The position numbers and the translations under genes are program-made. The notes beneath the pieces are model-generated. The model worked only from the letters and a program-made list of their open reading frames with translations, made no database searches and was not told the origin of the DNA. This document shows, piece by piece, positions 25,508-51,661 of a stretch of DNA of 51,661 nucleotides; the stretch's first letter is position 1, and every line of letters begins with the position of its first letter. Source of the DNA: Tangfeifania diversioriginum (GTDB taxonomy: Bacteria > Bacteroidota > Bacteroidia > Bacteroidales > Prolixibacteraceae); contig CAMCBW010000039.1 in assembly GCA_945873105.1 (NCBI GenBank), positions 1 through 51,661 of the forward strand, given 5' to 3'.

Positions 25508-27088
25508 TTATTTCTTCAATCCTTTGAGGAATGCATCGAGGTATTTTTGGTCACTGGCATCCGAATCACCATATTTTGTACGTACTTCAGTGAGTCGCTT
25601 GTGCATCCTCTGCTGCACATCTGCGTAGGCAGGATCATTGTAAACACTTTTCATCTCATGCGGATCCTTTTCCAGATCGTACAACTCCCATTCATCTACA
25701 TCGTAATAAAAATGAATTAGTTTGTAGCGGTCGGTGGCCACCCCATAGTGTCGTTTTACGCTGTGTTCTGCCGGATATTCATAATAGGTATAATAGGTCG
25801 CATCGCGCCAAACTTTTGTCTTGCCGGAAACCAATTTGCGGAAGGATTCTCCCTGCATATCCGACGGGACTTTCGCATCGGCATAATCCAGAAACGTTGG
25901 GGCAAAGTCGAGGTTTTGGACCAGATTGCCAATTCTGGTGCCGGGTTTGATCTCTTTTGGATAACGGATCAGCAATGGAACACGGAAGGACTCTTCATAC
26001 ATGAACCTTTTGTCGAACCACCCATGTTCACCCAAATAAAATCCATTGTCGGAGGTATAAACCACAATGGTATTATCCTTTAAACCGTTTTTATCGAGAT
26101 AATCAAGTAATTCACCAACTCCATCATCCACAGATTGTATCACTTTTAAATAATCACGCAAGTATCGCTGAAACTTCCATTGGTCCAACTCCTTTCCTTC
26201 CGGCTTATTCTTTAAAAATGCTTCATTTTTTGGATTGTAAACGGCCCTCCAGGCTTTGCGCTGCTGGTCATCCATCCGGTTTATATCTGCCATGAAATTG
26301 GTAGGTGCACCACTGTAGGGATCATTTTCAAATTTCATGTCATGTCCCCAGCCCATGATTTTGGTGATCTCCATTGCCTGCGTATGCGCAGCAGTGCTCC
26401 TGCCGGAATAATCATCGTAGAAATTATCAGGAAACGGAAACACACGATCTTCGAACAATTCCAAATATTTCTCTTCCGGCAGCCAGTTTCTGTGGGGGGC
26501 TTTCTGGTGATAGAGCAGACAAAATGGTTTCGTTTTATCGCGTTTTTGATCGAGCCAGTCAAGGGCAAATTGCGTTGTCAGCTTCGTTACATAACCAGGA
26601 TATCTCTTCTTTACACCGTTCTCAATGAAGTCGGGATTGTAGTAATTACCCTGTCCTGGCAAAACATTCGAATAATCAAACCCCTGCGGGAGTCCGTCAA
26701 GGTGAATTTTTCCAATCATGGCAGTGGTATAACCTGCCTTTTGAAGCTGTTTCGGAAAATTATCCTGGTCCCAGTTGAAGCCACCCCGGTTATCGGTTTT
26801 TCCATTGACAAAGCTGTGTTTACCCGTCAGCATGGTGGCCCTGCTTGGGGCACAGAGCGAATTGCTCACACAAGCCCTGGTAAAGATGGCACCCTCCTGG
26901 CCAATCCGATCGATGTTGGGGGTTTTGTTCAGGCCGAAGCCATAGGAGCTGACGGCCTGGTAGGCATGGTCATCTGACATGATGTAGATGATATTGGGCC
27001 GCTGTTTCATGGTTTTCTGGCCGAAGACCGCAGGTACCATTCCAGCCGTACAGAGGGTAAGCAGGGATACAAGTGAAGTTTTGTTCAT
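25508..27088 (-). CDS. Exported family S1 sulfatase, first of three
   Basis: Hydrolyses sulfate esters, probably on a carbohydrate. The 526-residue product has a signal peptide (about residues 1-23). The metal-binding SDDH is at 38-41, and the formylglycine-site core C79-A-P-S-R83 lies within SNSLCAPSRATMLTGK. IGKIHLDG and YHQKAPHR, and later VVYTSDNG, are conserved active-site stretches. The DYYNP..F..NG and VIQSVDDGVGELLDYLDK blocks recall GlcNAc-6-O-sulfatase-type S1_11 enzymes. Since Cys is the modified residue, an anaerobic or aerobic maturase encoded elsewhere is required. It lies 135 bases from the next sulfatase, on the same strand, with a -7 box in front. Confidence 0.95.
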   Translation of the reverse strand: MNKTSLVSLLTLCTAGMVPAVFGQKTMKQRPNIIYIMSDDHAYQAVSSYGFGLNKTPNIDRIGQEGAIFTRACVSNSLCAPSRATMLTGKHSFVNGKTDNRGGFNWDQDNFPKQLQKAGYTTAMIGKIHLDGLPQGFDYSNVLPGQGNYYNPDFIENGVKKRYPGYVTKLTTQFALDWLDQKRDKTKPFCLLYHQKAPHRNWLPEEKYLELFEDRVFPFPDNFYDDYSGRSTAAHTQAMEITKIMGWGHDMKFENDPYSGAPTNFMADINRMDDQQRKAWRAVYNPKNEAFLKNKPEGKELDQWKFQRYLRDYLKVIQSVDDGVGELLDYLDKNGLKDNTIVVYTSDNGFYLGEHGWFDKRFMYEESFRVPLLIRYPKEIKPGTRIGNLVQNLDFAPTFLDYADAKVPSDMQGESFRKLVSGKTKVWRDATYYTYYEYPAEHSVKRHYGVATDRYKLIHFYYDVDEWELYDLEKDPHEMKSVYNDPAYADVQQRMHKRLTEVRTKYGDSDASDQKYLDAFLKGLKK

Positions 27089-27107
27089 GTTGGTTTGTTT
27101 TATCTAC

Positions 27108-27115
27108 CAAAGATA
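27108..27115 (-). promoter_or_regulatory. Candidate -7 box (TATCTTTG)
   Basis: TAnnTTTG match 20 bases before the first sulfatase start, implying its own promoter. No good TTTG -33 element was found at the expected spacing. Confidence 0.4.
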
Positions 27116-27223
27116 CATTTTTGGGCTGATTAAGCCCGTGTAGTTGCTCGAAAAATGCACACAATCCCCTTTTATAATCCCTTACATGGTTTATAATGCA
27201 AGAATGAATTTTCTATCTGGAGT

Positions 27224-28639
27224 TCAATTGACGAGGAATTGGGCAAAATCGTCCCGGTTCCGGAGGCACCAGTCGGCCAGCATCTTCCTGTGCTCTGCCA
27301 ATATAGATTGAAATTTGGGATCCGTGGCAAGATTGATCATTTCGCCCGGATCGTTCTTAGTATCGAAAAGTGATTCACGCTGATTTCCCTGGCTGTAGAT
27401 CCAGTATTTGTAACGGTCACCTCGTACCATACGACCATCTGGATTGGGTTTTAGGCCATCAATAGCAGCTCCCTGTACAGGCTTCACCTCAGAGACAATA
27501 AAAGTTCGGATAAGGTTTTCTTGCCCATTTTCCAAATTTATCTTCGCACTCAGTCCCGGCAAGTCTGTGGGTATTGGAATCCCGGCATAATCGCAGATGG
27601 TTGGGATCAAATCTATTCCAGTTTGGATCAATTTTTCAGATTTGACAGGTTTTTTCATTCCCGGTACTGCGATAACGAAAGGCACATTGACCACCTCCTC
27701 GAAGAAATTGGTTTTTTGATTGAGGCGATGGGCACCCTGACTATCTCCATGATCGGAAAGAAAAACGATAACGGTATGCTTATCCATACCCGTCCGCTTC
27801 AATTCATCCAATATCTTTCCGATTTCAGCATCCACTTTTTCGATCATACGGTAGTAAGCCCAGCGGTATTGCCGCCATTTCGCCTCATCAAAATTCCCTA
27901 CCGGGAACATGGGGCTGGCATGGGCAGAGCTCCGTAACAGGGTAACGATGTCTGATTCATTCCTGCTTGGCGCCTGGTTGGGTAACACTGGCGGACAGAA
28001 TTCCGCTGCAGGTGGATCGCCAATTGTTCCATCCGGCAATTTTTGTCCCCTGGCCCATTCACAAATGTTGTGGGGATTGCAAAATGAGGCGACCAGCAAA
28101 AATGGTTTCTCCCGCTTTTGTTTCAGAAATTGAATGGCATCACCCGCAATGACCGAATCCATCCCCACCGATTTGTTGTGCGCCAAGAACTCAAATCCGT
28201 GGGATCCCTGGTTTTTAAGCTCATAGGGCATGTGCCATTTCCCAACATAACCTGTTGCAAAACCAGCTTGCTGAAAAATGAGGCCCATATTTACAAACCT
28301 TACAGGGTCAAGTTTTTTTTCATTGTCATTCATCTGAATACCCACACTGTGGGTATAGTGACCGGTAAACATGGAGGCACGGGAAGGGATACAAAGCGGA
28401 TTGGCACAATAGGCTTTCGTAAAGGTAATCCCATGGTTGGCCAGGTAATCCATGGCCGGTGTCTTCAAATATTTGTTGCCAAGGCGGTTGCTCATGGCAT
28501 CGGCCGATTGCTGGTCGGTCATGATAACAACAATATTCGGTTTTTGCACTGCCTGCTGCGCCGAAAGTAAGGATCCGGTTCCTGTGACTGAAACCAGCAC
28601 AAGTCCTATTGACAAGAATGGTCTATGTTTATTGTTCAT
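27224..28639 (-). CDS. Exported family S1 sulfatase, second of three
   Basis: The 471-residue product has a signal peptide (about residues 1-28). The catalytic core is C83-I-P-S-R87 within NPLCIPSRASMFTGH. The metal site is MTDQQ (Asp42), where the usual second Asp is Gln. VGKWHM and HGFEFLAHN follow, and VIVFLSDHGDSQGAHRLNQKTNFFEE supplies further active-site residues. ATG 28639 was chosen because the upstream 15 codons would precede the signal peptide. Its sulfated substrate is unknown. Located just after susD. Confidence 0.94.
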   Translation of the reverse strand: MNNKHRPFLSIGLVLVSVTGTGSLLSAQQAVQKPNIVVIMTDQQSADAMSNRLGNKYLKTPAMDYLANHGITFTKAYCANPLCIPSRASMFTGHYTHSVGIQMNDNEKKLDPVRFVNMGLIFQQAGFATGYVGKWHMPYELKNQGSHGFEFLAHNKSVGMDSVIAGDAIQFLKQKREKPFLLVASFCNPHNICEWARGQKLPDGTIGDPPAAEFCPPVLPNQAPSRNESDIVTLLRSSAHASPMFPVGNFDEAKWRQYRWAYYRMIEKVDAEIGKILDELKRTGMDKHTVIVFLSDHGDSQGAHRLNQKTNFFEEVVNVPFVIAVPGMKKPVKSEKLIQTGIDLIPTICDYAGIPIPTDLPGLSAKINLENGQENLIRTFIVSEVKPVQGAAIDGLKPNPDGRMVRGDRYKYWIYSQGNQRESLFDTKNDPGEMINLATDPKFQSILAEHRKMLADWCLRNRDDFAQFLVN

Positions 28640-28663
28640 CGTAATGATTGTTGTTTTGATTGT

Positions 28664-28671
28664 CAAAGGTA
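28664..28671 (-). promoter_or_regulatory. Candidate -7 box (TACCTTTG)
   Basis: TAnnTTTG match 24 bases before the second sulfatase start. Suggests it is not only read through from susD. Confidence 0.4.
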
Positions 28672-28823
28672 AATTAAAACACACCTATTACCTGCAAGTC
28701 AGTCTTCCTATCGCATAGGATATCGAGCCTTTCATTCAAGCAATATGGGTAAAAAAAGGAAGCTGTCAAAATATCCTAAAACCAATGGCAATATTCCGAA
28801 CAGCTTCCATGGAATCAAAAATA

Positions 28824-30347
28824 CTAATATCCCGGATTCTGGTTGAAGTCCGTAATGCTTATCTCGGTTTGTGGTATCGGGAACAAGTAATCCCTGCTTT
28901 TGACAACTGCATGGGGCTCGTAGGAATCCACTGAGGTAAAAGCCTCCTCAAGAATTCCCCAGCGCTTGATGTCGTACCACCGGTTGAATTCAAAGGCAAA
29001 TTCCAATCGCCGCTCTTCCCTGACAGCCTTTATAAAATCCTCCTTACTTATTCCGGCGTTTACATTAATAGGGAAAGCATTGAGGGAGGTTCCGTTCCAC
29101 CTGGCCCTGGTCCTAATAAGATTAACATAGCCAATGGCCTCATTGGACGCCCCTTCTGTTTCGGCTATTGCTTCAGCGGCTATCAGCAATACCTCTGCAT
29201 AACGGTACATGCAGTAGTGGTGGTCGCTCGACCGGTCATCACCCGAAACCAGCGGTCCGGGACCTGTGTACCTGAAGTATTTGGCAATATGTGGCCGTTT
29301 GATCGAAATGGTTGCAGGTGCTTTTAAGATGGCTGTTTTTACACCTTTGATATCAATTGTATCCTCGAAGGCCACTTTTCTGCGGTAATCCCTGCTGTCC
29401 CACGAATTGTAAACCTTCAGCGAAGGCACATTAACAGACAAACTTCTTGCCGCCAAACCCTTCACACGGGTCAGGTTGACCATCCCTTCCACCGGGTCAT
29501 AGCCGCCAGAAAATAGGGTAGCCTTTTTATCAATGGTAAATACCGGTTCCTTGAGAATTCCGGTAGTCTCAATATTTGCATTGAAGAGATCCTGGTAATT
29601 CTTTTCCAGTTGGTAATTGAAACTGGCAGCATTGTTGATAACGAACCTGGCCTCGGTAGCAGCATTGGTAAACTGCTTCAGTGTAAGATAAACATCGGCC
29701 AACAAGGTGGCAGCACTTCCCTGGGTGCCAATATTTCTGACATCCGCGGTATTCTTGGCCGGCAGATTATTTTTGGCAAAGATCAAATCCTCCACTATCT
29801 TCTTGTACACTTCGCTCTCCGCAGTTCTGTTGATGGCATCCAACTGCTCTGCACTTTCTACAGGCGTATCAAGATAAGGCACATCGCCAAAACAACGTAC
29901 CAGGTGGAAATAGGTGAAGGCACGGATAAATCTTGCCCTGGCTTCCAATTCATTTTTAACCTTGGCATCCGCAGTAATCGAACGAGCAGCCTTAATGGCC
30001 GTATTAGCGCCAGAAATTGACTGATAGAATCGAACCCAGCTTTCGCTGATCAGCGAATTGTTGGCATCCATACTGAAATTATTGATTGCAATCCGTTCGG
30101 CGGCCGTCCCAACATCGCCAATGTCTACCATGTCGCTGCGAAGCTGCAGGGTTAGCCAAAAGGATTTTTCTATCTGGGTGGTATTCCATTCTGCATAAGC
30201 GCCCATGATTACCGCCTGAACATCATCGGGTGTTTTAAAAAAACCTTCAGGTGCCATCAGCCCTTTTGGTTCTTCGTCCAACTTGGTGCATCCTGAATAA
30301 ACCAAAGTCACCAAAGAGAGAACTATTGTATATGCTAATTTTTTCAT
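28824..30347 (-). CDS. SusD/RagB-family glycan-binding lipoprotein
   Basis: The outer-membrane lipoprotein partner of the SusC transporter captures oligosaccharide and acts as a lid. The 507-residue product has a lipobox (LVTLVYSGC, Cys20). KLDEEPKG, FFKTPDDVQAVIMGAY and LRSDMVDIGD are found in the N-terminal TPR-like part, with ARFIRAFTYFHLVRCFGDVPYLDTPV. The C-terminal SusD signature is YRYAEVLLIAAEAIAET..NEAIGYVNLIRTRAR...EERRLEFAFEFNRWYDIKRWG. It starts 27 bases after the SusC stop, as in nearly all Bacteroidetes pairs. Confidence 0.97.
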   Translation of the reverse strand: MKKLAYTIVLSLVTLVYSGCTKLDEEPKGLMAPEGFFKTPDDVQAVIMGAYAEWNTTQIEKSFWLTLQLRSDMVDIGDVGTAAERIAINNFSMDANNSLISESWVRFYQSISGANTAIKAARSITADAKVKNELEARARFIRAFTYFHLVRCFGDVPYLDTPVESAEQLDAINRTAESEVYKKIVEDLIFAKNNLPAKNTADVRNIGTQGSAATLLADVYLTLKQFTNAATEARFVINNAASFNYQLEKNYQDLFNANIETTGILKEPVFTIDKKATLFSGGYDPVEGMVNLTRVKGLAARSLSVNVPSLKVYNSWDSRDYRRKVAFEDTIDIKGVKTAILKAPATISIKRPHIAKYFRYTGPGPLVSGDDRSSDHHYCMYRYAEVLLIAAEAIAETEGASNEAIGYVNLIRTRARWNGTSLNAFPINVNAGISKEDFIKAVREERRLEFAFEFNRWYDIKRWGILEEAFTSVDSYEPHAVVKSRDYLFPIPQTEISITDFNQNPGY

Positions 30348-30374
30348 TGCTGTAGAATTTAAATATTTAGACCA

Positions 30375-33300
30375 TTAAAATCCCAAATTTATACCTATGG
30401 TATAAGAAATAGTATTCGGGTAACTGCCAAAATCCAGGCCAAGATTGGTGTTGCTGGATTGGTAGGCAACCTCCGGATCCACGCCGGAGTAGTTGGTGTA
30501 GGTCCATAAATTCTGCCCGCTCACGTAGATGCGTGCCGAACTTAATTTAAACCTGTTGATAATTCTGGAGGGAAATTCATATCCCAAAGAGATATTTTTC
30601 AATCTGACAAAGGAGCCATCCTCCACAAAACGGGTAGATGTTCTTGGGGATCTGCCCGTTGCAGCTTTTGGCACATTGGTATTGGTATTGGTAGGTGTCC
30701 ACCTTTGCAAAGCTTCTGTGGTAGCATTGGTATTTCCGCTCAGGATATTCAACTCCATCTTGGCCAGATTCAGCATGTCGCCTCCGGTAATAGCCTGAAA
30801 GAAGATATTCAGGGCAAATCCTTTCCAGGAAAGATCATTGTTCAAACCCCAGACAGCTTTTGGGTTTGGATTGCCGATAATCTTCCGGTCCTTGTTGTCC
30901 AATACCAGGTCATTGTTCAGATCTGCAAATTTTTCGCCTCCCGGTGTGGTCTCGAAAGCGCCTCCTGCGATGATTTTATCACCTTCCTGGTAAACACCCT
31001 GGTAAACATAACCATAGAAAGAGCCAACTGGTTCACCGACTCTCAGGATCGAATTTTCGACCGAGCCGGAAAAACTAGGCGCATTGGTGAACATGATGTC
31101 CGCACCACCATTTGGCAGGTTCAGCACTTTGTTGCGGTTCAAAGTCAGATTGAAACTGGTGTTCCATTTTAGCGTTTTGATAAGATTTTTGGAGGTTGCT
31201 TCGAACTCATATCCTTTGTTCTCAATCTCTCCCAGATTTTCCAAACGTTCCTGAAAGCCTGAAAAGGAAGGGATCGGAACACTAAACAGCAAATCATTGG
31301 TTTTCTTGTTGTAATATTCGGCCGTAAAAAGTAACCTGCGCTCAAAAAAATCAAGGTCAACCCCCACGTTGAACTGGGAGGTTGTTTCCCAGGTCAGGTC
31401 CTTGTTGGCAATGGAAGAAGGAAGTACAGAGGTAACGCTGGTGTTGTTCACCACAAAATAGGTAGAGGAGATCCTGGCAAGCGACTGATAAGCCCCAATG
31501 GCCTGGTTGCCAGTGAGACCATAACTTGTTCTGAGCTTTAGCCCAGAGACAATTTTATTTTGAGGGTAAAAACTTTCGTTCCCTACATTCCATGAAAAAG
31601 CTCCGGAGGGGAAATAGGACCATTTGTTGCCTTCACTGAACTGGGAGGCTCCGTCATAACGGCTGGTAACTGTAACAAGGTAACGCTTGTCATAGTTGTA
31701 ATTTGCCCTTCCATAAAAGGAGGTAATTTCTGATTCGGTATAGTTGGAACTTGGAGCTTTAAGATTTGTGCCAACGCCAAGATTCCAAAAACCAAGTGCA
31801 TCGGTAATAAATCCCGAGTTGGTTGCCGTAAATGTTTCGTATTTGAAATCCTGGTAAGAATATCCGCCAGTCAATACAAAATCGCTTTTCTCCCCTGCCT
31901 TAAAGGTATAATTGAGGTATTGTTCTGTTAAAAAATTAGAGCGTTTGCCATATGACATTGATCCCAAACCATTTGTAGCTATTCCCTGGTTGGATATTTT
32001 ATTGCTGTATACTCCGTTGCGCTGGGTCGAAACAATCATTCCATAGGTGGAATTAAATATCAATCCTTTGGCAAGCTCAAATTCAGCTTTCAGATTGGTC
32101 TGGAATTTATCCAGTATGTTCTCCTCTGTTCTGCCGTCGATTACAGCCATGGGGTTCTCATAAGCAGCGATTCCCACTTTGCTTACCGTATATTTACCAT
32201 TGGCATCCAGAACTCCTTGTGTAGGCTCAAACCGAAAAGCAGCCTGAGTTACACTGGCATTGGCCTGTCCTCCGCCAACTGAGGAAAGGACACCGTCCTG
32301 GCCTGATTTCATGTAGGAGGAATTAAGGTATATCCGGATATGGTCAGTAACACTGAATTTCAGGTTGGTAGTTAAAGAATATTTGTTGTAGGCAGATGAT
32401 TTTACAACTCCCTTCTGGTCAGAATAGATTCCAGAAACATAATACTGGATTTTTTCATTTCCACCTGAAAAAGACAACTGGTAGTTTTGAAAATGTCCTG
32501 GTTGGTAGATGAGGTCCTGCCAGTCGGTATCTGTCGTGATGGCATTCAAGTCGTAAAAATTGGTTTTCCTTGCTTCGTTGATATAGGCAGCAAAATCATT
32601 GGCTTTGAGCAAATCAAGCCTGCCAATCTCTTTTTGAAATGAGTAGTAACTATTGAATTCCACTTTCGTTTTTCCTGATTTTCCTGATTTAGTGGTGACC
32701 ATTACCACACCATTGGCTCCCCTTGATCCATAAATTGCTGTTGCGGAAGCATCCTTCAAAATTTCAATAGCTGCAATGTCCTCGGAAGGTGGCATTGAAC
32801 CTCCAACCAAACCGTCTACCACAAAAAGCGGGGCACTGCTGGCATTGATGGAAGTGGCGCCGCGAATGGTAATTTTAAAATCCTCACCAGGCTCACCGTT
32901 GGTGGCCTGGATCATAACCCCGGCAGATCTTCCCTGCATGGACTGAACAACGCTGGTAGCCGGATAGGCTGTCAAATCTTTTTGACTGACAGTGGCGACT
33001 GCTCCTGTAACATCACTCTTTTTGATACTTCCATACCCGATCGCAACCACTTCTTCCAAACCAATGGTCTCCTCCTCCATGACAATATTGGCAGCAATTT
33101 TTCCGGAAACGGCTAACTCCCTGGTCTTCATTCCCACGAACGAGAACACCAAAGTTGAATTATCAGAAATATTTGAAAGCGAATACTTTCCATCGATATC
33201 CGTGATAACTCCAATGGTGGTTCCTTTTACCACTACTGAAACCCCGGGCAAAGTCGCTCCTGAAGTATCTGTGACCTTCCCGGTAAATTTCTTCTCCTGC

Positions 33301-33692
33301 TGCGTGGCAACCGAAGCAAATTTTTCGGCTTTTGGTGCAAGTACAATCAGGTTGTTTTGGAGCACATTAAAGGTGATCTCCTGATCTTTGAATAACTCAC
33401 CAAGAATCACCTCCACACGCTGATCCGTGACTTTCAAATCAACTTCTCTGGTAACATCTACTTGTTCCCGCTGGTAAAAGAACCTGAAATCACTTTTCTC
33501 TTCAATCTCCTTTAGCACATCTACGACCTGCCTTGCCTCAACATCGAAGGAAAATTTGGTTACTTGTGAATAAACAGTCGCAGAAACCTGCATCAGACAA
33601 ACCATCAAAATCAAAATTGTCAGTTTCATCTTTAAGATTAGCTTATGCCCCAAAATTCCACCTGGGAAAGAGGCAATTGGTTTTTTTTTCAT
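30375..33692 (-). CDS. SusC/RagA TonB-dependent receptor with STN domain
   Basis: Outer-membrane importer of a glycan, 1105 residues. A signal peptide ends near residue 43. An STN (secretin/TonB short N-terminal) domain occupies about 45-125 (FDVEARQVVDVLKEIEEKSDFRFFY). A carboxypeptidase-regulatory-like domain follows (FTGKVTDTSGATLPGVSVVVKGT), then the plug (GYGSIKKSDVTGAVATV... ILKDASATAIYGSRGANGVVMVTTK), then a 22-strand-type barrel ending in a terminal aromatic strand. The STN domain normally signals to a FecR partner, and FecR and ECF sigma genes lie directly upstream. So this transporter probably controls its own transcription. Confidence 0.97.
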   Translation of the reverse strand: MKKKPIASFPGGILGHKLILKMKLTILILMVCLMQVSATVYSQVTKFSFDVEARQVVDVLKEIEEKSDFRFFYQREQVDVTREVDLKVTDQRVEVILGELFKDQEITFNVLQNNLIVLAPKAEKFASVATQQEKKFTGKVTDTSGATLPGVSVVVKGTTIGVITDIDGKYSLSNISDNSTLVFSFVGMKTRELAVSGKIAANIVMEEETIGLEEVVAIGYGSIKKSDVTGAVATVSQKDLTAYPATSVVQSMQGRSAGVMIQATNGEPGEDFKITIRGATSINASSAPLFVVDGLVGGSMPPSEDIAAIEILKDASATAIYGSRGANGVVMVTTKSGKSGKTKVEFNSYYSFQKEIGRLDLLKANDFAAYINEARKTNFYDLNAITTDTDWQDLIYQPGHFQNYQLSFSGGNEKIQYYVSGIYSDQKGVVKSSAYNKYSLTTNLKFSVTDHIRIYLNSSYMKSGQDGVLSSVGGGQANASVTQAAFRFEPTQGVLDANGKYTVSKVGIAAYENPMAVIDGRTEENILDKFQTNLKAEFELAKGLIFNSTYGMIVSTQRNGVYSNKISNQGIATNGLGSMSYGKRSNFLTEQYLNYTFKAGEKSDFVLTGGYSYQDFKYETFTATNSGFITDALGFWNLGVGTNLKAPSSNYTESEITSFYGRANYNYDKRYLVTVTSRYDGASQFSEGNKWSYFPSGAFSWNVGNESFYPQNKIVSGLKLRTSYGLTGNQAIGAYQSLARISSTYFVVNNTSVTSVLPSSIANKDLTWETTSQFNVGVDLDFFERRLLFTAEYYNKKTNDLLFSVPIPSFSGFQERLENLGEIENKGYEFEATSKNLIKTLKWNTSFNLTLNRNKVLNLPNGGADIMFTNAPSFSGSVENSILRVGEPVGSFYGYVYQGVYQEGDKIIAGGAFETTPGGEKFADLNNDLVLDNKDRKIIGNPNPKAVWGLNNDLSWKGFALNIFFQAITGGDMLNLAKMELNILSGNTNATTEALQRWTPTNTNTNVPKAATGRSPRTSTRFVEDGSFVRLKNISLGYEFPSRIINRFKLSSARIYVSGQNLWTYTNYSGVDPEVAYQSSNTNLGLDFGSYPNTISYTIGINLGF

Positions 33693-33724
33693 AAATTTGT
33701 ACGTGTTTGATTAATAATTTAATT

Positions 33725-33775
33725 GGTGTTACAGCACCAGTTTATTAACTGCATCGGGCCGGTGGTGTTACAGCA
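33725..33775. repeat. Direct repeat GGTGTTACAGCA, two copies
   Basis: Copies at 33725-33736 and 33764-33775, 39 bases apart, in the 111-base gap between fecR and susC. May be a regulatory site or chance. Confidence 0.35.
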
Positions 33776-33803
33776 TCTCCGGCTCTCTGTTTTTTTGATT
33801 AGC

Positions 33804-34808
33804 TCATGTATTCCTCCTCTTCTTTTGTATGACAATATTTTGACCCTTAATCCTGTATTCTATTGGTAATGTTTGTTTCAATATGTCCAGTACCTCCAGA
33901 ATGGTTTCGTTCTTAAAAGTTCCATCATAGTGGTAATCCATGATATTTTGGTCTACGATAACAATGTCAACGCCATATCTTCGCTCCAGCAAGGTCTTAA
34001 GGTCTTTCAGCTTCATGTTGACAAAGACAAGCTTGTTGTCTTTCCAGGAGATGTACATCCTGGTATTCACTTCCCCCACACTGACTTTGTCTGACTCCTT
34101 GTCGTAGACCAACTGCTGACCCTGCTTCAGGATGGTTCTGGATTCATTTGTATTTGCACCAGATCTGTTCACTGCAACACTTCCCTCCACAAGAGTGGTA
34201 ACTACCTCTCTTTCTTCCGGATAAGCCTTTACATTGAAGGTTGTTCCTGTTACTGCGATATCATAGGAGCTGGTGTGAACGAGGAATGGTCTTTCCTTTA
34301 TTTTGGCTACCTGAAACCATGCCTCTCCATTCAGGAAGATTTCCCGGTCTCCCAAAGAATCTTCCACCGCATATTTCAAGGTCGAACCTGAATTCAGAAA
34401 AATATGTGAACCATCCGGCAAAATCACTTCGGATATGGATCCCAGCGGTGCAACCGATGTACAATAGACAGGTTTTGAAATCTTCTCACCCGAATTAATC
34501 CAGTAACCGGCAAACAATCCAAAGAGTAGTATGGCAGCCCATTGAGACAAACGGATGATCCATTGAAATCTGTTGGTGGACCGATCAATTTCCAGGGATC
34601 GCTGGTGCCACATGTTCTCGAATAGCTGATCGAAATAGGGTTTGTTTTCTTCAACATCTGCCGGTTTCACCAATTCATCCAGCAGGTGATCCTTGATTTC
34701 ATTTTCAAGCTGAGGTTGGTGAAACAGGGATAGGAATTGCTGTCGCTCCGCGGGATCCGCTTTTCCTGAAGCTCCATTTTGAATAATATCTTTGATGGAT
34801 AGTGCCAT
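33804..34808 (-). CDS. FecR-family anti-sigma factor
   Basis: Holds the neighbouring ECF sigma factor until SusC signals ligand uptake. The 334-residue product has a cytoplasmic N-terminus and a single membrane helix at about 88-105 (QWAAILLFGLFAGYW). The periplasmic FecR domain follows (EVILPDGSHIFLNSGSTLKY, GEAWFQVAK, DIAVTGTTFNVKAY, TTLVEGSVAV). The C-terminal DUF4974/STN-interacting part is FVNMKLKDLKTLLERRYGVDIVI...LEVLDILKQTLPIEYRIKGQNIVI. It lies 123 bases from the ECF sigma gene and 111 bases from susC, in the standard sigma-fecR-susC-susD order. Confidence 0.96.
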   Translation of the reverse strand: MALSIKDIIQNGASGKADPAERQQFLSLFHQPQLENEIKDHLLDELVKPADVEENKPYFDQLFENMWHQRSLEIDRSTNRFQWIIRLSQWAAILLFGLFAGYWINSGEKISKPVYCTSVAPLGSISEVILPDGSHIFLNSGSTLKYAVEDSLGDREIFLNGEAWFQVAKIKERPFLVHTSSYDIAVTGTTFNVKAYPEEREVVTTLVEGSVAVNRSGANTNESRTILKQGQQLVYDKESDKVSVGEVNTRMYISWKDNKLVFVNMKLKDLKTLLERRYGVDIVIVDQNIMDYHYDGTFKNETILEVLDILKQTLPIEYRIKGQNIVIQKKRRNT

Positions 34809-34931
34809 ATTTACTTTTTATAAGAGTTAATACGAATGACGCTGTCTGTTTACTCACTCCCCTCAAAAAATAAGGCCAAAAATTCAAGTGATTGGCTGTA
34901 ACAAGCCCAAAAATCAGTCAAATACCAATTA

Positions 34932-35522
34932 TCAATTGCAGTGAAGGTAAAAAAAGAGCAGTACGGGCAGAGAACTTTGCCCGATCCTCTCCCGTAGGTA
35001 AGAAATGGCACGGTAAAGCTGGTTTTCGACCGTTCGTTTGGATAGTTGAAGCCGGATGGCAATTTCATCATTGGAGAGACCATCCTCCTTGCTTAACCTG
35101 AAAATAAGCCGGCGCTGATCAGGCATAGTTTCAACCAGCCTGTTCATTTGCATTAGCATGTCGTGGTAGATTACCTCGTGCCAGGTCGAATCAGCATTGG
35201 ACTGATCATTGTTTCCGGCAAATGCAAGGTAGGCCTGTTCAATATTTTTTCGGCGGATGAAATCGTAAATTAGGTTGATACAAATCTTGAAAAGGAGTGA
35301 TTTGATATTTTTGGAATCATCCAGGGTTGCCCTGATTTCCCATAGCCTCAGAAAAATTTCCTGGAGCAGTTCTTCCGCATCTTCCCTGCGTTTCAGATAA
35401 GACAACGCAAACGCAAAGATTCTGGGGGCATACCTGTTAAACAATAACTGGAATGCATCTTTGGATCCCTCTTTTAGTTGCGAAACAAGTAGTCTATCCT
35501 GGTCAGTATATTCCGGTACCAT
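34932..35522 (-). CDS. ECF sigma factor (FecI-like, sigma-70 family)
   Basis: Directs RNA polymerase to the SusC/SusD operon. The 196-residue product has a sigma-2 region (DAFQLLFNRYAPRIFAFALSYLKRREDAEELLQEIFLRLWEIR) and a sigma-4 region (QRRLIFRLSKEDGLSNDEIAIRLQLSKRTVENQLYRAISYLRERI) with a helix-turn-helix. The C-terminal hydrophobic tail (SSLPVLLFFYLHCN) is common in Bacteroidetes members. It starts just after the third sulfatase gene on the same strand. The start codon follows from family length. Confidence 0.96.
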   Translation of the reverse strand: MVPEYTDQDRLLVSQLKEGSKDAFQLLFNRYAPRIFAFALSYLKRREDAEELLQEIFLRLWEIRATLDDSKNIKSLLFKICINLIYDFIRRKNIEQAYLAFAGNNDQSNADSTWHEVIYHDMLMQMNRLVETMPDQRRLIFRLSKEDGLSNDEIAIRLQLSKRTVENQLYRAISYLRERIGQSSLPVLLFFYLHCN

Positions 35523-35562
35523 TCATCCACAAGTAGGTTATCGCAAATATACATTTAAGAAA

Positions 35563-37119
35563 TCAGAATTTCTCCACATCCGTCTTCTCAATCCAGCCGG
35601 CGCTCATTTTCTCACCCGACAACCACCGGTTGTAATAGTTCCGTTGCCGCTCTTCCGAATAGGGGTAAGTATCGAAGATCTCTCCCTTCCCCAAAATCCG
35701 GGGATCCTTGTCTTCCCTCAATTTTTTCTCCATCTGACCAACCAGTTTGGCCTTTGCCTTTTCAAAGTTGGGATGATTTGCCAGGTTTTCAATGCACTCC
35801 GGGTCCTTTGTCAACAAGTACAGCTCCTCCCCGGGGTGCTTCCCAAAGTTCATTTCCCAAAAATAGCTTTTCCCCTTGGATCGGCGATCCTTCAGAATGT
35901 TGGATTTGGTGGGGGACCCATCACAATCCATGTATCCGGTCTCCGGGTTACCGGCAGGCCACCGCTCCGGATGATAATTTCTGAGGTACAAAAAATCTTC
36001 GACGACTATCCCTCGAATCGGATATCCCTGGTCATCCGGTCGCCCCAAATCTGTCCGCTCCTTGCCAATGACCATGAATTCGCGCAATTTACCCTTTTGT
36101 TTGTCTGACAGGAGGGGCACAAGACTCCTGCCTTCCATCGGTTGCATCCCGTTTTTGTCAGGTTTGATTCCTGCTGCCTCAAGGAATGTCGGGGCGAAAT
36201 CGGTGAAACTCACAAAATCGGCTAGCACCCTACCGGGATGTTGAATGCCCAAGGGCCACCGGATGGCCAAAGGCAGGTGATTGGAGAGCAGGTAGGCATT
36301 CCCTTTGATCCGAGGGAAGGGCATGCCATTGTCTGCGGTGATGATAACGATGGTATTTTCCAGCAGCTTCTGGTCTTCCAATATTTTCAGCATCTTACCG
36401 ATATGCGAATCAAAATACTCGATTTCAAAGGCATAGTCGAGAAGGTCATTTCTAACCGTGTCGTTGTCAGGCCAAAAACCATAGACCTTCTCGATCTCGT
36501 TGGTTGATTTGCCGCCTTTCCCTGCCCCGGCCCTGAATTCATATGGCCGGTGAGGTTCGGTACTGCCAAACCAGAAACAGAAGGGTTTCCCTTGATGATT
36601 ATCCTTTAGAAATGCCTCAAAGTTGGCGGTATAGTCATTGTCGGAAATGAATTTTGCCGGAGGGACAGTTTTGATGGTGCTGTAGGCCGGCCCCAACAAT
36701 TCCCGCCTTTTGCCGTTAAGCATACCCGGATCGCCCGGTGCCCAGCCTTTGGCGGTATGGCCTACATGGTAACCGTTTTCCATCATGGTTTCGGCATAGG
36801 TCTTGAATTTCGCAGGAAAAAAGGGGACATGATTGGCTGCCGCTTCCAGTTGCCAGGAGGTTCTTCCGGTCAGGATGCAGGAACGGGAAGGAGAACATTT
36901 GGCATTGGGGGTAAAGGCATTGGTGAAAAGTATCCCCTCCCGGGCAACCCTGTCGAAGGCCGGTGTTTTGACCCATTTGCATCCATAGGCTCCGGCATGG
37001 GGAAAAGACTGGTCGTCGGCAATACAAAACAGGATATTGGGACGATCCATTGCCATTTTCTGGGAGTAACCAGCGATTGCCTGCATCACCAACAGGCCCA
37101 ACATAGTCAAAGTTCTCAT
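35563..37119 (-). CDS. Exported family S1 sulfatase, third of three
   Basis: The 518-residue product has a signal peptide (about residues 1-19). The metal site ADDQ has Asp35/Asp36, and the catalytic core is C75-S-P-S-R79 within [23 protein letters not shown] replaces the usual GKWH at the next active-site Lys/His position. [13 protein letters not shown] and IVIITADNG complete the site. ATG 37119 was taken because it starts a signal peptide; the longer open frame to 37194 has none. It is upstream of the ECF sigma gene on the same strand, so it flanks the PUL. Confidence 0.94.
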
Positions 37120-37339
37120 CTTCACAGGGACGCAACAAGTACGCGCCAATCCCACAAAAGGTAATGTAAATGCACCTGAGAGTTCCATACGCAAGAACTG
37201 AAGTATGACAATTTAAGAATGATTTTTACGGATGAAAGGTAACAATTTTCTAAATCCCTCCGTCCTATTCCCGCTCTATCCCCCAATCCCTTTGTCTCCC
37301 AGTCCCTAAGTCCCAATCCCCCAACGAGCCAATATTGAT

Positions 37340-39312: not shown

Positions 39313-39427
39313 AAGTGCCTAGAGTGCCTAAAGTGCCTAGAATGCCTAGAATTTTGAACTCCGAACACAAAACGCAAATGGCAAATTACTCTAGGCACTC
39401 TAGGCACTTTAGGCACTCTAGGCACTT
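39313..39427. repeat. AAGTGCCTAGAG inverted tandem repeat
   Basis: Arms 39313-39352 and 39388-39427 are complementary over 40 bases with two mismatches. Each arm is made of about four 10-base units of the type GTGCCTAGA or GTGCCTAAA. It sits in the divergent gap between ferredoxin and GH53. Confidence 0.78.
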
Positions 39428-44576: not shown

Positions 44577-44910
44577 TCAACAAAATTACCATTTGGGAAA
44601 AGTTATTATCTAGCTCTATTTTAAGACATAAATCCAACGATTTTATTCAGCAGAAAATAAGATCCATGAAATGTACCTAAAATTATCCGGTTTTTTCCAT
44701 TCCATTTTGGGAAATATTGTCTTGCTTTGCAGAATCAAAAAACTGGAATCAACGTAGTATGAAGCGTAAAATATAGGTCGCGCAAAGAACGCAAAGAAAC
44801 GCAAGACGCTTCGGGGCTAACTTTGCGTAACCTTGCGTTCTTTGCGCGACAATTTGGAATCAACCCAGAAGAGCAGATATTAAATTAATTACTCATAAAA
44901 ATTCATCAAA
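44577..44910. other. Non-coding gap with long hairpin before ilvC
   Basis: No gene. It contains the long GTCGCGCAAAG hairpin at 44777-44850 and, before it, AT-rich sequence that may hold the ilvC promoter. No leader peptide or riboswitch was recognised. Confidence 0.5.
44777..44850. repeat. Long GTCGCGCAAAG hairpin, copy 3
   Basis: 18-bp perfect arms at 44777-44794 and 44833-44850 (GTCGCGCAAAGAACGCAA and complement). The 38-base inner part contains further short CTTTGCG-like units. Related to 16071-16137 and 16691-16755. It lies 60 bases before ilvC. Confidence 0.78.
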
Positions 44911-46447: not shown

Positions 46448-49400
46448 TTACTTGAGATTTTCCTTGATTGATTCTCGTTTGTTCCTGCCAATATACTCAG
46501 AAGGTGAGAGTCCGAGTTGCTTTTTAAAGCACATAGAAAAGTAGGAGTGGGAATTGAAACCTACTTTGAAACAAATCTCATCAATATTGGTCTCCCCGCC
46601 CTCCATTAGCCGGATAGACTTATTGATCCGAACGAATTTGATAAACTCTGTAGCAGACTGGTTGGTCAAAGATTTCAATTTTCTGTGCAATGAACTTCTG
46701 CTCAGATTAAGTTTAGAGGCCAGTACATCAACCGTAAAATTCGGGTCGACCATATGATGATCAATAATTGCTACAGCCAAATCCAGTAACTCTTTGTCCG
46801 GACGAAGTTGCTGCATCTCTTCATTCCATTCTCCATGAGCCTTTGTGAATTTGTCGCGAAGGATGGTTCTGTAATCAAGTAATTTCCTGATCCTCATCAA
46901 TAGCACACGATCGTCGAATGGTTTAACCACATAATCGTCAGCACCTGTTTCAAAACTTTCCAACTGACTTTCGACAGATGAAAGTGAGGTCAATATTATT
47001 ACTGGAATATGACTGGTATTCAAATCTTTTTTAAGGATTTGACAGAACTCATTTCCGTTCATTCCTGGCATCATAACATCGGTGAGAATGAGATCTGGAT
47101 CTGATTCCCCAACAATCCTGAGCCCTTCTGTCGCATTGTCAGCAGTAATGACGTGGTAAAACTCAGACAAAATATCAATGAGAATATTTTGCATCTGTTT
47201 GTTATCCTCGACCACAAGAATTTTAACCTCCTTGTCCGAAATTTTTGAAGCAGAGGGCTGAGACACCGAAAAGGTTTCTAGTTCTTCATAAATAACAGTT
47301 CCTGAAATTGCCTCATGAACACTTTGACCGGGCATGCTTTCAATTACTGGTATTCGAACATAAAAAGTGGCTCCCATATCTTTGCCCGTATAAACCTCAA
47401 TCAGCCCTTTGTGCATCCTGATGTATTCGCTGCAAAGATGTAATCCAATACCTGTACCACCGGCATGATCATTCGACTTGTAAAAACGGTCAAAAATGTA
47501 AGGCAAATCGACAGGAGCAATTCCGGCACCATCATTCTTAACAATGATTGTCACATATTCTCCAGTTATTTCTTCACCAACCTGATAATGCCATGGCTCC
47601 TTAGGTGTCACTCCTTGCCATCCTGGTTCTTTAATGGATAGATGTATGGTTCCGTCATGAATAGAATTCTTTGTTGCATTGGAAAGAAGATTGAATACCA
47701 ATTTATCAATTTTATCAAGGTCAATGCTCATAGGAAAGGAAGAAAAATCCGATTCAAAGACGAATTTAATTCCTAAGTCATTTGCCTGAAGTGAAAAGCA
47801 TTGAAATACCTCCCGGCAAAGGGTAACCAGGTCAACGGATTGTGGTTGAAAACTTTCCTTCCCCAGCTCAATGACACGAATGTCCAAAATTTGGTTAACC
47901 AACCTTAAAAGCCGGTTGGCATTGTTCTCGATCATGTTCAAATGTTCTACAGGCTTATCCTCTCCTTCAATTTTCTTTTTCAAGACTGAAAGCGGAGCCA
48001 AAATCAGTGTTAGTGGGGTTCTGAATTCATGGGAAATATTGGTAAAAAACTGCATTTTCAAATGGTGTAGTTTTTTTTCGTTTTCATTTTGTAGCCGTTC
48101 TTGGAGGATTGAATTTTTAAGCCGGTTTCTGATACGTAATTCTCTCTGCAAAAGGTAAAATAGGGTAAACAACAGTACAACATAGGAGAATATCGCATAA
48201 CCGGTACTCCAGAAAGGCCTGTTGATGATAATCTGTGTTTTGGTTGGTACATCATTCCATTTCCCGTCGTTGTTGGATGCCTTCACCTCAAGCAAATACT
48301 TGCCTGGAGGGATCTTGGTGAAAACGGCTTTGTTTTCTTGCTCTATTTCAACCCAACTTGGGCTATATCCCTTGAGCCTGTACTTGAACTTGTTTTTCTG
48401 AGGCAAAAGAAAATTATTCGCTGCAAATTCAAATTTCAGTGAATTCTGGTTATAATTAAGTGCAAGGCGATCCATTGTCATAAGAGATCGCTTAATCAAA
48501 TCAGGATCAGATACATGAGTGGTTTTTTTGTTGTTTATTTCAAGACCGGTTATATAGGCGGTCGGGACAATGGGATTTTCCTTGATCGATAGGGGATCGA
48601 AACGGGTAAAGCCATTGGACCCTCCAAAATAAAGCATTCCGTTTTTGGACTTGAAGGCAGCACCCGGGTTAAACTGATTACCCTGCAGGCCATCTGAATA
48701 ATCAAAATTTCTTATATTTCTGCTAACCGGAGACCAGGCGGAGATTCCATTCTCCGTACTCATCCATATCACTCCTGCATCGTCCTCAAGTATTCCATAA
48801 ACATCGTTTCCTGCCAGTCCATCTTTTTTGGACAGGTTTGTAAATGTTTTTACATTGGGATCATAGATAATAACTCCTTCACCGGCTGTACCGATCCAGA
48901 TGTTATGATTGGCATCCTCATGCAGGGAAATCATTACCTTATTACCAATGTGGTTGGTGGTATCCTGATTGAAAAAAAATCTCCTGAACGCTTCAGAATC
49001 ATTACTTTTCATGTTTAGACCGTTTGCTGTTCCAACCCAAAGGTTTCCTTTTGAATCAAACAAAAGAGATTTAACACTATTGGAGCTAAGTGATTCAACG
49101 TCGGAATTTTTTAGCTTAAACTGCTTAACTTGACGATTATGGTAATTGTAGCAAAAAAGTCCGCTGAAAGAAGAGGCAAACCACACACCATTCCTGTCTG
49201 AGGTGATGTCGGTAAACAACTCTCTGTTGGTATCTATCAGATCAAAGCGTCTAAAATCACCCGATCCGGGGGGATTTAAATAGATACCCAAACCATAGGT
49301 TCCAACCCAAAGCGCCCCAAACAGATCCAAATGCACCGATTTGATATGGTCAACAATTCTATTCTGGTCTATTATACGGAAGTAACTAAAATGGTTGCTT

Positions 49401-50566
49401 TTCAGATCCAGGTAATTAAGCGTCCCTTCTTCCGTGGAAATGATGATTTTGCCATCCTTGGTCTCTTCAAAATCACTAATACCGTTATCACTCAATGAAT
49501 TCACAGAAGAGGTTCTTTTGTAATGTTTAAAATTGTTTGACCATTCATTGATGTAGCTCAATCCTCCCGACCATGTACCAATCCATAAACCATTCTTGGA
49601 GTCCTTGTAAAATTCGAAGATGCTCTTGTTCTGCAATCCTGTTTGCGTATCATCTGAAATAACTTCTATACCTTCTGGTTTAATCCTTACCAATCCTTTG
49701 AATGTACCAAGCCAGATCTCATCCTTGTACCTGATGATGTTTTTCACCTTTGAACTTGGGATTCTGTTACTCCCCTTCGTGTCATCACTGTAGTGTTCAG
49801 TCAGACGACCTGAACTATTAAAAACATCTGCGCCACCCCAATCATAACCAACCCAGAGTTTGTCTCCATCCGGTAATAGCGCAGTTACTTTTTCCGGTCG
49901 CTCGTGCGCAAAAAGATTAATCTTCTCGTGGGTTGAATCCGAAAAATAGATTCCACCAGATTTCCCTCCCATCCAGATCCGGTCATCTTTCCTATTCATA
50001 AACGCAAACCCAATCCGGTCATTTTTCGTGTTATTCGGTATTTGCAGGTAGGTAAGCAGGTTTCGTTTAAAATCGATGCGGGCAATGCCGTAGTTGTCAA
50101 CCATCCAATAAGTACTGTCGGCCGTCTGGAAAATCCGTGAAACATTGATACCTCTGGCATTCCCGGCTGCATCATGGAACTGGTATCTTATGAAATGCTT
50201 CATCTGGTTGTCGAAAGAGCATATACCATTGTTCGTGGCTATCCACAGAACATTTTTCCGGTCAAGATAAATTGACCGGACTGAATTACCCGGCAATGAG
50301 AATTTGTTCTCGGGGGAATTGATGTAATTTACTGTATTGATCGTGTTGTAGCGGTAAACTCCGCTGTTGGACCCAAACCAGATGAATCCAAACTTATCTT
50401 CACAAATGGTGTTGATTGCATTAGCGGAATAACCGCCATCAGGTGAAACCTTGATTATTTTAAGATCATCTGCATCCGCTGTACGCTGAAGTATCAGGAG
50501 CGTTGACAGAAGCAAAAGAATAAACAAATATTTGGGTTTACTATGCGAAATTGGCTTCTTGGTCAT
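46448..50566 (-). CDS. Hybrid two-component system regulator (sensor kinase, receiver, AraC output)
   Basis: Single-protein glycan sensor and regulator of 1372 residues. After a signal peptide/anchor there are many Reg_prop beta-propeller repeats (about 30-690; typical units GLWIGTWSGGL, NLWVGTANGL, VIWMSTENGI) and a Y_Y_Y domain (about 700-780). A membrane helix follows near 786-810. HisKA has NISHEFRTP with His846 as phosphoacceptor, then HATPase (NATKNS, NDGAGIAP, GGTGIGLHL). The receiver has Asp1163 in LTDVMMPG, and the AraC HTH occupies about 1270-1372. The ATG start at 50566 was chosen over a TTG at 50584. It is divergent from a probable susC gene. Confidence 0.96.
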   Translation of the reverse strand: MTKKPISHSKPKYLFILLLLSTLLILQRTADADDLKIIKVSPDGGYSANAINTICEDKFGFIWFGSNSGVYRYNTINTVNYINSPENKFSLPGNSVRSIYLDRKNVLWIATNNGICSFDNQMKHFIRYQFHDAAGNARGINVSRIFQTADSTYWMVDNYGIARIDFKRNLLTYLQIPNNTKNDRIGFAFMNRKDDRIWMGGKSGGIYFSDSTHEKINLFAHERPEKVTALLPDGDKLWVGYDWGGADVFNSSGRLTEHYSDDTKGSNRIPSSKVKNIIRYKDEIWLGTFKGLVRIKPEGIEVISDDTQTGLQNKSIFEFYKDSKNGLWIGTWSGGLSYINEWSNNFKHYKRTSSVNSLSDNGISDFEETKDGKIIISTEEGTLNYLDLKSNHFSYFRIIDQNRIVDHIKSVHLDLFGALWVGTYGLGIYLNPPGSGDFRRFDLIDTNRELFTDITSDRNGVWFASSFSGLFCYNYHNRQVKQFKLKNSDVESLSSNSVKSLLFDSKGNLWVGTANGLNMKSNDSEAFRRFFFNQDTTNHIGNKVMISLHEDANHNIWIGTAGEGVIIYDPNVKTFTNLSKKDGLAGNDVYGILEDDAGVIWMSTENGISAWSPVSRNIRNFDYSDGLQGNQFNPGAAFKSKNGMLYFGGSNGFTRFDPLSIKENPIVPTAYITGLEINNKKTTHVSDPDLIKRSLMTMDRLALNYNQNSLKFEFAANNFLLPQKNKFKYRLKGYSPSWVEIEQENKAVFTKIPPGKYLLEVKASNNDGKWNDVPTKTQIIINRPFWSTGYAIFSYVVLLFTLFYLLQRELRIRNRLKNSILQERLQNENEKKLHHLKMQFFTNISHEFRTPLTLILAPLSVLKKKIEGEDKPVEHLNMIENNANRLLRLVNQILDIRVIELGKESFQPQSVDLVTLCREVFQCFSLQANDLGIKFVFESDFSSFPMSIDLDKIDKLVFNLLSNATKNSIHDGTIHLSIKEPGWQGVTPKEPWHYQVGEEITGEYVTIIVKNDGAGIAPVDLPYIFDRFYKSNDHAGGTGIGLHLCSEYIRMHKGLIEVYTGKDMGATFYVRIPVIESMPGQSVHEAISGTVIYEELETFSVSQPSASKISDKEVKILVVEDNKQMQNILIDILSEFYHVITADNATEGLRIVGESDPDLILTDVMMPGMNGNEFCQILKKDLNTSHIPVIILTSLSSVESQLESFETGADDYVVKPFDDRVLLMRIRKLLDYRTILRDKFTKAHGEWNEEMQQLRPDKELLDLAVAIIDHHMVDPNFTVDVLASKLNLSRSSLHRKLKSLTNQSATEFIKFVRINKSIRLMEGGETNIDEICFKVGFNSHSYFSMCFKKQLGLSPSEYIGRNKRESIKENLK

Positions 50567-50840
50567 GTGCGATATTGCTAACAAGTGTCATCATTGTGCT
50601 ATCTAATAAAAACTTTCTCCAACTGGGAACAGATAAAACCCTCATGCACTATCGTTCACAAAACAGCCTGTAAATTGCCCGAGGTTCCATATCTAATCTC
50701 TGATATTCAATGCATTAATACTGTCTTTTGTGGGAAAAACAATTCAAGGAATTTTTCCAATTTGTCTGTAAATGCAATCTTTCTACCATTACAATCAGTC
50801 ATTAACAGGTAAAGTTAAACATTTAGCGATTTTTATTTAC

Positions 50841-50863
50841 AATAACGTTGTATTTTATAACAG
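50841..50863. repeat. Direct repeat, member 1 (GTTGTATTT type)
   Basis: Matches 51321-51343 at 18 of 23 positions in the same orientation. Overlaps the start of the first palindrome. Confidence 0.4.
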
Positions 50864-50888
50864 ATGTTTCAAACTTGGAACATCTGTT
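50859..50888. promoter_or_regulatory. Candidate operator palindrome 1
   Basis: AACAGATGTTTC (50859-50870), 6-base spacer, GGAACATCTGTT (50877-50888): 12-bp arms with one mismatch. The 17-base stretch 50858-50874 recurs as its exact reverse complement at 51279-51295. Confidence 0.65.
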
Positions 50889-51264
50889 GCATCTCCAAAT
50901 ATTGTTACATCCGGAAAAATCATTATTTATCAGGACCTTTGACTCTCAATTTTTAAAGCATTAAGAATCAGATCTATCAAACTATAACCCTATTAAGCAT
51001 TCTAAACTATGAAAAAATTTACATTTTTTAATTGTTTATAATAGAACTTAACTATTTTTGGATAAGAAAAAATGGCTTTAAATTGTAGGACTTCCTTACA
51101 AATCAAAAGCTGACAATTTCAATACTGACTTTTTTTGATTTCTATGTTTGCTTGGTTTTATTCTAAGGGAAATGGTAAGATCTCCCCAAGTTCAAATTTA
51201 TGCAGTATTAATTATTTAGACATACAATTATGTGTCAGTTTATATAAATTATGCACCAGATTAC

Positions 51265-51294
51265 AACAGACGTTGCATGTTTGAAACATCTGTT
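51265..51294. promoter_or_regulatory. Candidate operator palindrome 2
   Basis: AACAGACGTTGC (51265-51276), 6-base spacer, GAAACATCTGTT (51283-51294): two mismatches in 12-bp arms, the same geometry as 50859-50888. Starts 406 bases after the first site and ends 204 bases before the SusC-type start. Confidence 0.65.
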
Positions 51295-51320
51295 ACAAGA
51301 TAAAAATTTAGTGTGTATCA

Positions 51321-51343
51321 AATACTGTTGTATTTGTTATCAG
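51321..51343. repeat. Direct repeat, member 2 (GTTGTATTT type)
   Basis: Matches 50841-50863 at 18 of 23 positions. Lies 26 bases after the second palindrome. Confidence 0.4.
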
Positions 51344-51498
51344 GCCAATTAAAAATTTGGTTTCAAATTTCAGTTCGTATTGTAATTAGAGGAAATTTAA
51401 AAATTAAAATATTATGCAATCGATTGCTCTCATCGCTTTGTCTTTTTATTTCAATATATATTATCAAGCTAAATAATCAATTTCAAACAGAACAGACT

Positions 51499-51661
51499 AT
51501 GAAAAAAAATCAAAGGTTTGACTGCTTCACCTTGGGATGTTGTACCCAGATTCTATTGAAGATCAAATTGCTTTCTGTTGTTATGCTGCTCTCTATGGTA
51601 GCCATGGCGGCAGGAGAGCGTTTGGAGACAACAAAACCGGTGCCGGCCACCATTCCTGCCG
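51499..51661 (+). CDS. N-terminus of probable SusC-type TonB-dependent receptor, cut by window end
   Basis: Only 54 codons are visible: a Lys/Arg-containing start, then a hydrophobic signal segment (LLKIKLLSVVMLLSMVAMAAG). This layout, MKKN..LG..T..LLKIKLL, is typical of the start of Bacteroidetes SusC/RagA proteins, and position divergent from a hybrid two-component regulator supports it. No domain beyond the signal region is in the window, so family membership is inferred. Confidence 0.5.
   Translation, partial: MKKNQRFDCFTLGCCTQILLKIKLLSVVMLLSMVAMAAGERLETTKPVPATIPA

Follow-up and report, generated by a model that had tools for sequence, protein, structure and literature searches.

Putative operators of a hybrid two-component regulator flank a promoter segment that appears reversed upstream of a susC-type gene

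The locus

The window analysed here is the whole of contig C39 (51,661 nt) of Tangfeifania diversioriginum. Near its right-hand end an HTCS (hybrid two-component) regulator gene and a susC-type gene diverge from a gap that holds two palindromes (Table 1). Pfam finds a Reg_prop sensor, Y_Y_Y, HisKA, HATPase_c, a receiver and an AraC-type HTH_18 domain in the regulator, a single protein that thus unites the parts of an HTCS, from sensor and histidine kinase to receiver and AraC-type domain. Its receiver carries a SHIP motif; the S/CHIP motif is described in the available excerpt of PMC11253607 as typical of most HTCSs and as accompanying suppressed DNA binding until phosphorylation. In the leader of the HTCS gene, downstream of the promoter box and ahead of the ATG, sits a dispersed REP-like, hairpin-like element of about 105 nt (50628-50740; GAAACCCTCATGCAC ... 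TGAGGGTTC), with at least five other copies in the genome among the matches listed and more in genomes G006 and G007.

The 5' end of susC (51463-51661) is 89% identical to that of a paralog on contig C6 of the same genome (G000:C6:138595-138794). Both contigs end inside susC, and a search of the assembly for the body of the gene gave nothing better than a 44% match, which suggests that near-identical susC copies were collapsed or omitted. The sequence TGCAATCGATTG at 51413-51426 is common to six susC leaders and resembles a LacI-family operator, which means that a further regulator may act on these susC genes. Between the C6 module described below and its susC lies a 55-aa ORF with a signal-peptide-like start (locus L089, G000:C6, from 19116). 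Elsewhere in the window, at 25508-37194, three sulfatases are grouped with SusC/SusD, FecR and an ECF sigma factor in a cluster of their own, which is probably a PUL for sulfated glycans controlled by a sigma/anti-sigma pair.

Table 1. Features of the divergent gap and its flanking genes (window coordinates)
Feature	Position	Strand	Details
HTCS regulator gene	46448..50566	-	Pfam, translation; probable ATG at 50566 (ORF 46448-50584)
-7-like box, predicted HTCS promoter	50810..50817	-	TAACTTTA; 41 nt from palindrome, as in G003, G005 and G073
Left arm of 59-nt imperfect inverted repeat	50831..50889	+	partner 51264-51322
Left palindrome (box3/box4 pair)	50859..50888	.	appears to keep the HTCS-promoter half of the ancestral module; without box1/box2
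Interval, apparently inverted relative to orthologous loci	50889..51264	.	ortholog-profile scores before and after flip
-7-like box, predicted operon promoter P	51193..51200	-	TAAATTTG; would point left to HTCS, away from susC
box1	51230..51237	+	ATGTGTCA
box2	51251..51258	+	ATGCACCA, degenerate; 21 bp from box1
Right arm of 59-nt imperfect inverted repeat	51264..51322	-	partner 50831-50889
Right palindrome	51265..51294	.	box3 ACGTTGCA degenerate; box4 ATGTTTCA on minus strand; box3 19 bp from box2
susC-type gene, 5' end	51499..51661	+	contig ends inside gene

Geometry of the palindrome pair

A first-pass annotation of this DNA had described two palindromes with 12-bp arms and a 6-bp spacer, 406 bases apart, and an exact 17-base stretch inverted between them. 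Both observations hold: the arms pair at 11/12 positions on the left and 10/12 on the right, with a 6-nt spacer in each and 406 bases from palindrome to palindrome, and the 17-base stretch TAACAGATGTTTCAAAC at 50858-50874 recurs inverted at 51279-51295. The palindromes agree at 27/30 positions in inverted and 24/30 in direct orientation; in the former alignment the spacers read AAACTT and AAACAT, a difference of one base. In full, the similar inverted pair extends over 59 nt at 80% identity.

Chance is exceeded by the pair as an inverted repeat and by the left site as a palindrome, but not by the right site alone. Among 3000 order-1 shuffles of the gap, one produced an exact inverted repeat of at least 17 nt, and none of 30 shuffles of the whole window did; repeats of this kind stand at four places in the real window, the palindrome pair and three others. 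Palindromes of the 12/6/12 form with at least 11 pairs occupy four separate places in the real window, including the left site, compared with two in total across 20 order-1 shuffles, while sites with 10 pairs, such as the right one, number 0-7 per shuffle. The three other exact inverted repeats have arms of 31 nt (20446-20543, arms 20446-20476 / 20513-20543, with similar sequence near 18238), 29 nt (39313-39427, made of AAGTGCCTAG-like units) and 18 nt (44777-44850).

Searches with the palindrome pattern found it to be rare. With up to three mismatches, the first pattern had just two matches in the 5.36-Mb genome, both of them the window sites (control 0), so it is not frequent at unrelated places, and a repeat family or mobile element was rejected as the source of the palindromes. 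A looser pattern added one site in the genome, G000:C6:137963-137992, upstream of the susC paralog. The exact pattern had no match in a named-genome collection, from which the window's own record is possibly absent, and the motif varies. An order-wide search (up to two mismatches) returned 2 of 393 genomes, namely the genome itself and one chance-like match, alongside two control matches, and therefore the module looks limited to the family, four other members of which were included in the draw.

A putative compound four-box operator module

HTCS orthologs that are 59-65% identical over the matched part occur in G001 (split over two contigs), G003, G005, G007, G073 and G100 (Mariniphaga). Comparison of the orthologous gaps, which had been suggested as a check, showed that one palindrome is kept upstream of the HTCS gene in 6/6. 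A GH88-like gene diverges from the HTCS gene in all six, and it is followed by susC-/susD-like genes in the four loci where the contig continues (G005, G007, G073 and G100; Pfam was run on one susC and one susD). Two pairs among the loci compared are not independent, as G073 and L048 are one genome and G159 and L047 have the same locus sequence.

Aligned on the palindrome, the six gaps share a fixed order: box1 (ATGTNNCA), 21 bp, box2, 19 bp, and the palindrome, which itself consists of two such boxes facing each other. Box1 reads ATGTTTCA, ATGTATCA or ATGTTGCA in these gaps, and box2 ATGTGCCA or ATGTGTCA. A TAnnTTTG box, which we take to be the Bacteroidota -7 box, lies 37-38 nt beyond box1 and faces away from the HTCS gene in 19/20 modules examined; L135 is without it, and L134, the 21st match, was left out as it has no such neighbour genes. 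On the HTCS side, TAnnTTTG occurs 29 nt past the 60-nt module in 8/8 modules of genus g10; outside g10, G003 has TAACTTTG at 46 nt and the rest are without an exact match within about 50 nt, while TAACTT stands in the same register in G005, G073 and the window's left site.

Across the family, a 60-base pattern with up to three mismatches matched 21 places in 19/140 genomes (one control match), and 18 of these places adjoin an HTCS gene, 17 in relatives and one in the window. All 17 modules in relatives are on the HTCS strand, 16 of them with GH88 on the other side; the window's is the only one of the 18 on the opposite strand. The remaining three places are the susC paralog at C6 (0 mismatches), a site beside susC in G023, and one in G161 without such a neighbour. 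GH88 is as constant a neighbour as the HTCS gene, except at C8/C39, C6 and G023. Modules in G146/G147 and in G149/G150 are one base apart or identical and hence not independent. The box1-box2 spacing of 21 bp is that of the direct repeat (about 21 bp apart) of Bacteroides-type HTCS operators, but the direct repeat is not the whole motif, since the palindrome is conserved in the same register; the module would thus be a variant operator.

In the genome itself, the GH88 ortholog (72%) is found at C8 without this HTCS, beside two genes that follow the HTCS gene in G003 and G005, one for a protein with a sub-threshold DUF4350 match and one a second HTCS-like gene. The palindrome is gone from the C8 GH88 locus, where weak remnants of box1 and box2 are seen by eye (best upstream-part profile score -6.3), while C39, with the HTCS and no GH88, retains it. 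The palindrome has stayed with the HTCS gene, not with GH88.

We also compared palindrome boxes with the first helix-turn-helix (HTH1) of the regulators. The boxes are of the TGCA type in g10 and G023 (one CGCA, some TGCG) and of the TCA type elsewhere; HTH1 reads SRS[ST]L in all 8 aligned proteins with TCA-/CCA-type boxes, of which G100 and G159 represent one genome, and SRSQL in 5/5 proteins with TGCA/CGCA/TGCG-type boxes. G133 and G149 were dropped from this comparison, their DNA-binding domains not being recovered, and G007, G155, G147 and G150 fell outside it. Box1 and box2 do not follow the split (box1 is TGCA in G073, G158 and G159; box2 is TTCA or CTCC in G146, G147, G149 and G150), so the idea that all four boxes change together with the regulator was dropped, since the palindrome boxes alone follow regulator type. 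Even these have an exception in the window's right box3, TGCA-type although the regulator has SRSSL. Since the split runs along genus lines and leaves out box1 and box2, this covariation counts as weak evidence, no more than a hint that the HTCS may be the binder.

Orientation of the interval between the palindromes

On a whole-module profile built from the six gaps, the window gap scores -10.4 as it stands and 55.1 once the interval from one palindrome centre to the other is flipped; in leave-one-out scoring the orthologs reach 58.4-119.2. The module is split in the window, with its HTCS-promoter half at the left palindrome and box1, box2 and the predicted operon promoter at the right. When the parts are scored separately, the P-box1-box2 half reaches 17.6 at the right palindrome, whereas none of 34308 sampled window positions exceeds -11.7; the same half scores 49.0 at C6. 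At the left palindrome it falls to -54.0 when read in the HTCS orientation and to -26.5 when read the opposite way. The HTCS-promoter half scores 9.4 at the left palindrome (background fraction 6e-5) and -12.7 at the right, a value reached by 0.6% of background. Since the halves of the profile lie at opposite palindromes and the flip raises the score, P is predicted to point at the HTCS gene and away from susC. Motif conservation, module anatomy and this reversed orientation can be read from the alignments, although the right module's box2 and box3 are degenerate (2 mismatches) and the reversed arrangement is known from one genome.

Similarity extends beyond the palindromes, whose outer 28-nt flanks match at 19/28, the best non-self match among 103266 window positions, six other places in the window reaching 18/28. 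Homology of the leader downstream of P to relatives is marginal, the score being reached by 1/300 shuffles for L118, 3/300 for C6, and 22-275/300 for the other seven. The interior of the interval scores 82 against the C6 region in the P direction (null maximum 57), a figure that includes the module itself; four other susC regions gave no match in the P direction, and one of these four, L005, scores 59 in the reverse direction (null maximum 51).

These sequence comparisons are best explained by two HTCS operators that enclose an inverted promoter segment. In relatives, the module begins with the predicted operon promoter P, followed by box1 and, 21 bp on, box2; the palindrome comes 19 bp after box2, and the predicted HTCS promoter last. 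P would drive a divergent GH88-susC-susD operon away from the HTCS gene, and the palindrome would serve as the inverted-repeat half of a compound operator to which the adjacent HTCS would bind with its AraC-type domain. Here, a second palindrome lies toward susC, and the stretch of about 400 bp that separates the palindromes would have been inverted, leaving P, box1 and box2 at the right palindrome with P toward the HTCS gene, and the HTCS promoter at the left. The simplest origin would be a short inverted duplication of the palindrome plus 28 nt, then an inversion between the copies; a 19/28 match of the outer flanks is what one such duplication would be expected to leave. As now oriented, the operon promoter should not serve susC, and a flip would aim it there. 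We infer HTCS binding, activation of P and a single inversion between the palindromes as the route to the present arrangement, and put the probability of this full model at about 0.68; that the palindromes are operators of the adjacent HTCS, its binding being putative, is well supported.

Alternative explanations

The first-pass annotation had seen in the palindromes a natural operator pair, possibly supporting looping. The part that assigns them to the adjacent HTCS fits a motif that is rare and kept in 6/6 orthologs; a conserved pair acting by looping is not supported, and in seeing the palindromes alone the annotation missed both the four-box operator and the reversed DNA between the copies. 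Two good sites within one gap are indeed what cooperation between HTCS operators across 406 bp would call for, yet exactly one palindrome (up to one mismatch) is present in 16/17 HTCS-side modules of relatives in the fetched loci and the window alone has two. In the exception, G023, no palindrome reaches that threshold, though two that carry 2 mismatches each lie 30 bp from one another; in L129 (G153) a further palindrome, also with 2 mismatches, lies 110 bp from the first. Moreover, at 10.5 bp per turn the 406 bp amount to 38.7 helical turns rather than a whole number, and we regard looping as very unlikely. Because the DNA between the copies lies reversed relative to relatives, the comparison points to promoter inversion rather than looping.

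A patchwork without inversion is the most serious competitor, albeit an unlikely one: a complete module (P, box1, box2, palindrome) would have been duplicated or imported beside susC in opposite orientation, the left site later losing box1 and box2 and the HTCS gene leaving the GH88 locus. In its favour, C8 does hold GH88 with adjoining PUL genes but without this HTCS, a full module is also found upstream of the susC paralog at C6, and the dispersed repeat in the HTCS leader suggests an unstable gap. Nevertheless, this route needs more steps, an inverted insertion and the loss of complementary halves at both sites, and the outer-flank match counts against it, tempered by the six places that come within one base of that match.

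We give still less weight to the operator belonging to a regulator other than the HTCS. GH88 and susC are likewise neighbours, and HTCS binding is a prediction from sequence; against this, the HTCS gene adjoins 17 relatives' modules, the palindrome remained with it where GH88 is elsewhere, palindrome type tracks HTH1 sequence (though confounded by genus), and box1 and box2 are 21 bp apart, which matches the average given for HTCS motifs in the accessible text of PMC3878776. RNA hairpins or a small RNA in place of DNA operators seem barely credible. The palindromes could fold, with 85.5% of cells pairing, more than in any of 500 shuffles; in 6/17 sequences both members of column pair 11/20 have changed, as would also happen in a symmetric DNA site. 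However, columns 10/21 and 3/28 are unpaired in 7/17 and 8/17 sequences and the sole Rfam match is far below threshold and located elsewhere, on which grounds hairpins were rejected; the same word also recurs as direct repeats at fixed 21-/19-bp spacing, which a hairpin does not need.

A possible live switch

If the inversion model is right, the interval might still flip, the HTCS palindromic operators doubling as inversion sites of a phase-variable PUL switch. The HTCS-activated promoter would then serve susC in one orientation and the HTCS gene in the other, so that sensing and random switching would converge on one DNA element, joining glycan sensing with phase variation. We consider the phase-variable switch doubtful, and flipping at the present day doubtful to much the same degree. 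As in invertons, inverted repeats flank a promoter (predicted from sequence), and the opposite orientation of the interval is seen in related species, with a single orientation in this one. The 17-bp exact repeat falls within the PhaseFinder rules quoted in the excerpt of PMC10994844, but according to the same excerpt 1,997 repeats of B. thetaiotaomicron do as well, which makes this weak evidence for a switch. Invertible regions near susC/susD are reported in the available portion of PMC10939037. Counting against a switch are the spacer base difference, the two degenerate right boxes, the single orientation in the species and the lack of a recombinase in the window, none being found among 36 scanned of 84 listed ORFs; the 13 tyrosine-recombinase matches in the genome are all on contigs other than C39. 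Our literature search found no HTCS-operator inverton among the matches listed.

Comparison with known systems

Many genes for glycan use in Bacteroidota are under HTCS control, and in the portions of the papers covered most HTCS DNA motifs were derived computationally. In the Bacteroides set of Ravcheev et al. 2013 (PMC3878776), as given in the accessible text, motifs for 16 HTCSs are all direct repeats with an average spacing of 21 bp; PMC3404733 reports ChIP-seq of an HTCS, and the word 'motif' is absent from its main text as available. Our literature search found no HTCS operator with an inverted repeat among the matches listed. What is new here is the compound HTCS operator, itself a prediction, together with a promoter segment that appears reversed between two operator copies. 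The conserved four-box operator and its promoter boxes at fixed spacing would provide a directly testable model for a family that includes Mariniphaga.

Like the Bacteroides operators in the accessible text of PMC3878776, the putative operator stands beside susC/susD genes and has a direct repeat, box1-box2, 21 bp apart; unlike them, it continues with a 30-bp inverted repeat 19 bp on, giving four boxes, and the module lies between two predicted divergent promoters. The locus resembles Bacteroidales invertons in that inverted repeats ahead of a susC-type gene enclose a predicted promoter, but here the repeats are putative regulator operators, one orientation is known, and neither a recombinase nor a recombination motif has been identified. 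Palindromic operators for AraC-family proteins are familiar from RhaS/RhaR, with which the present site shares inverted half-sites for AraC-type domains, whereas here the palindrome is combined with a direct repeat and would serve a membrane-bound, one-protein two-component regulator.
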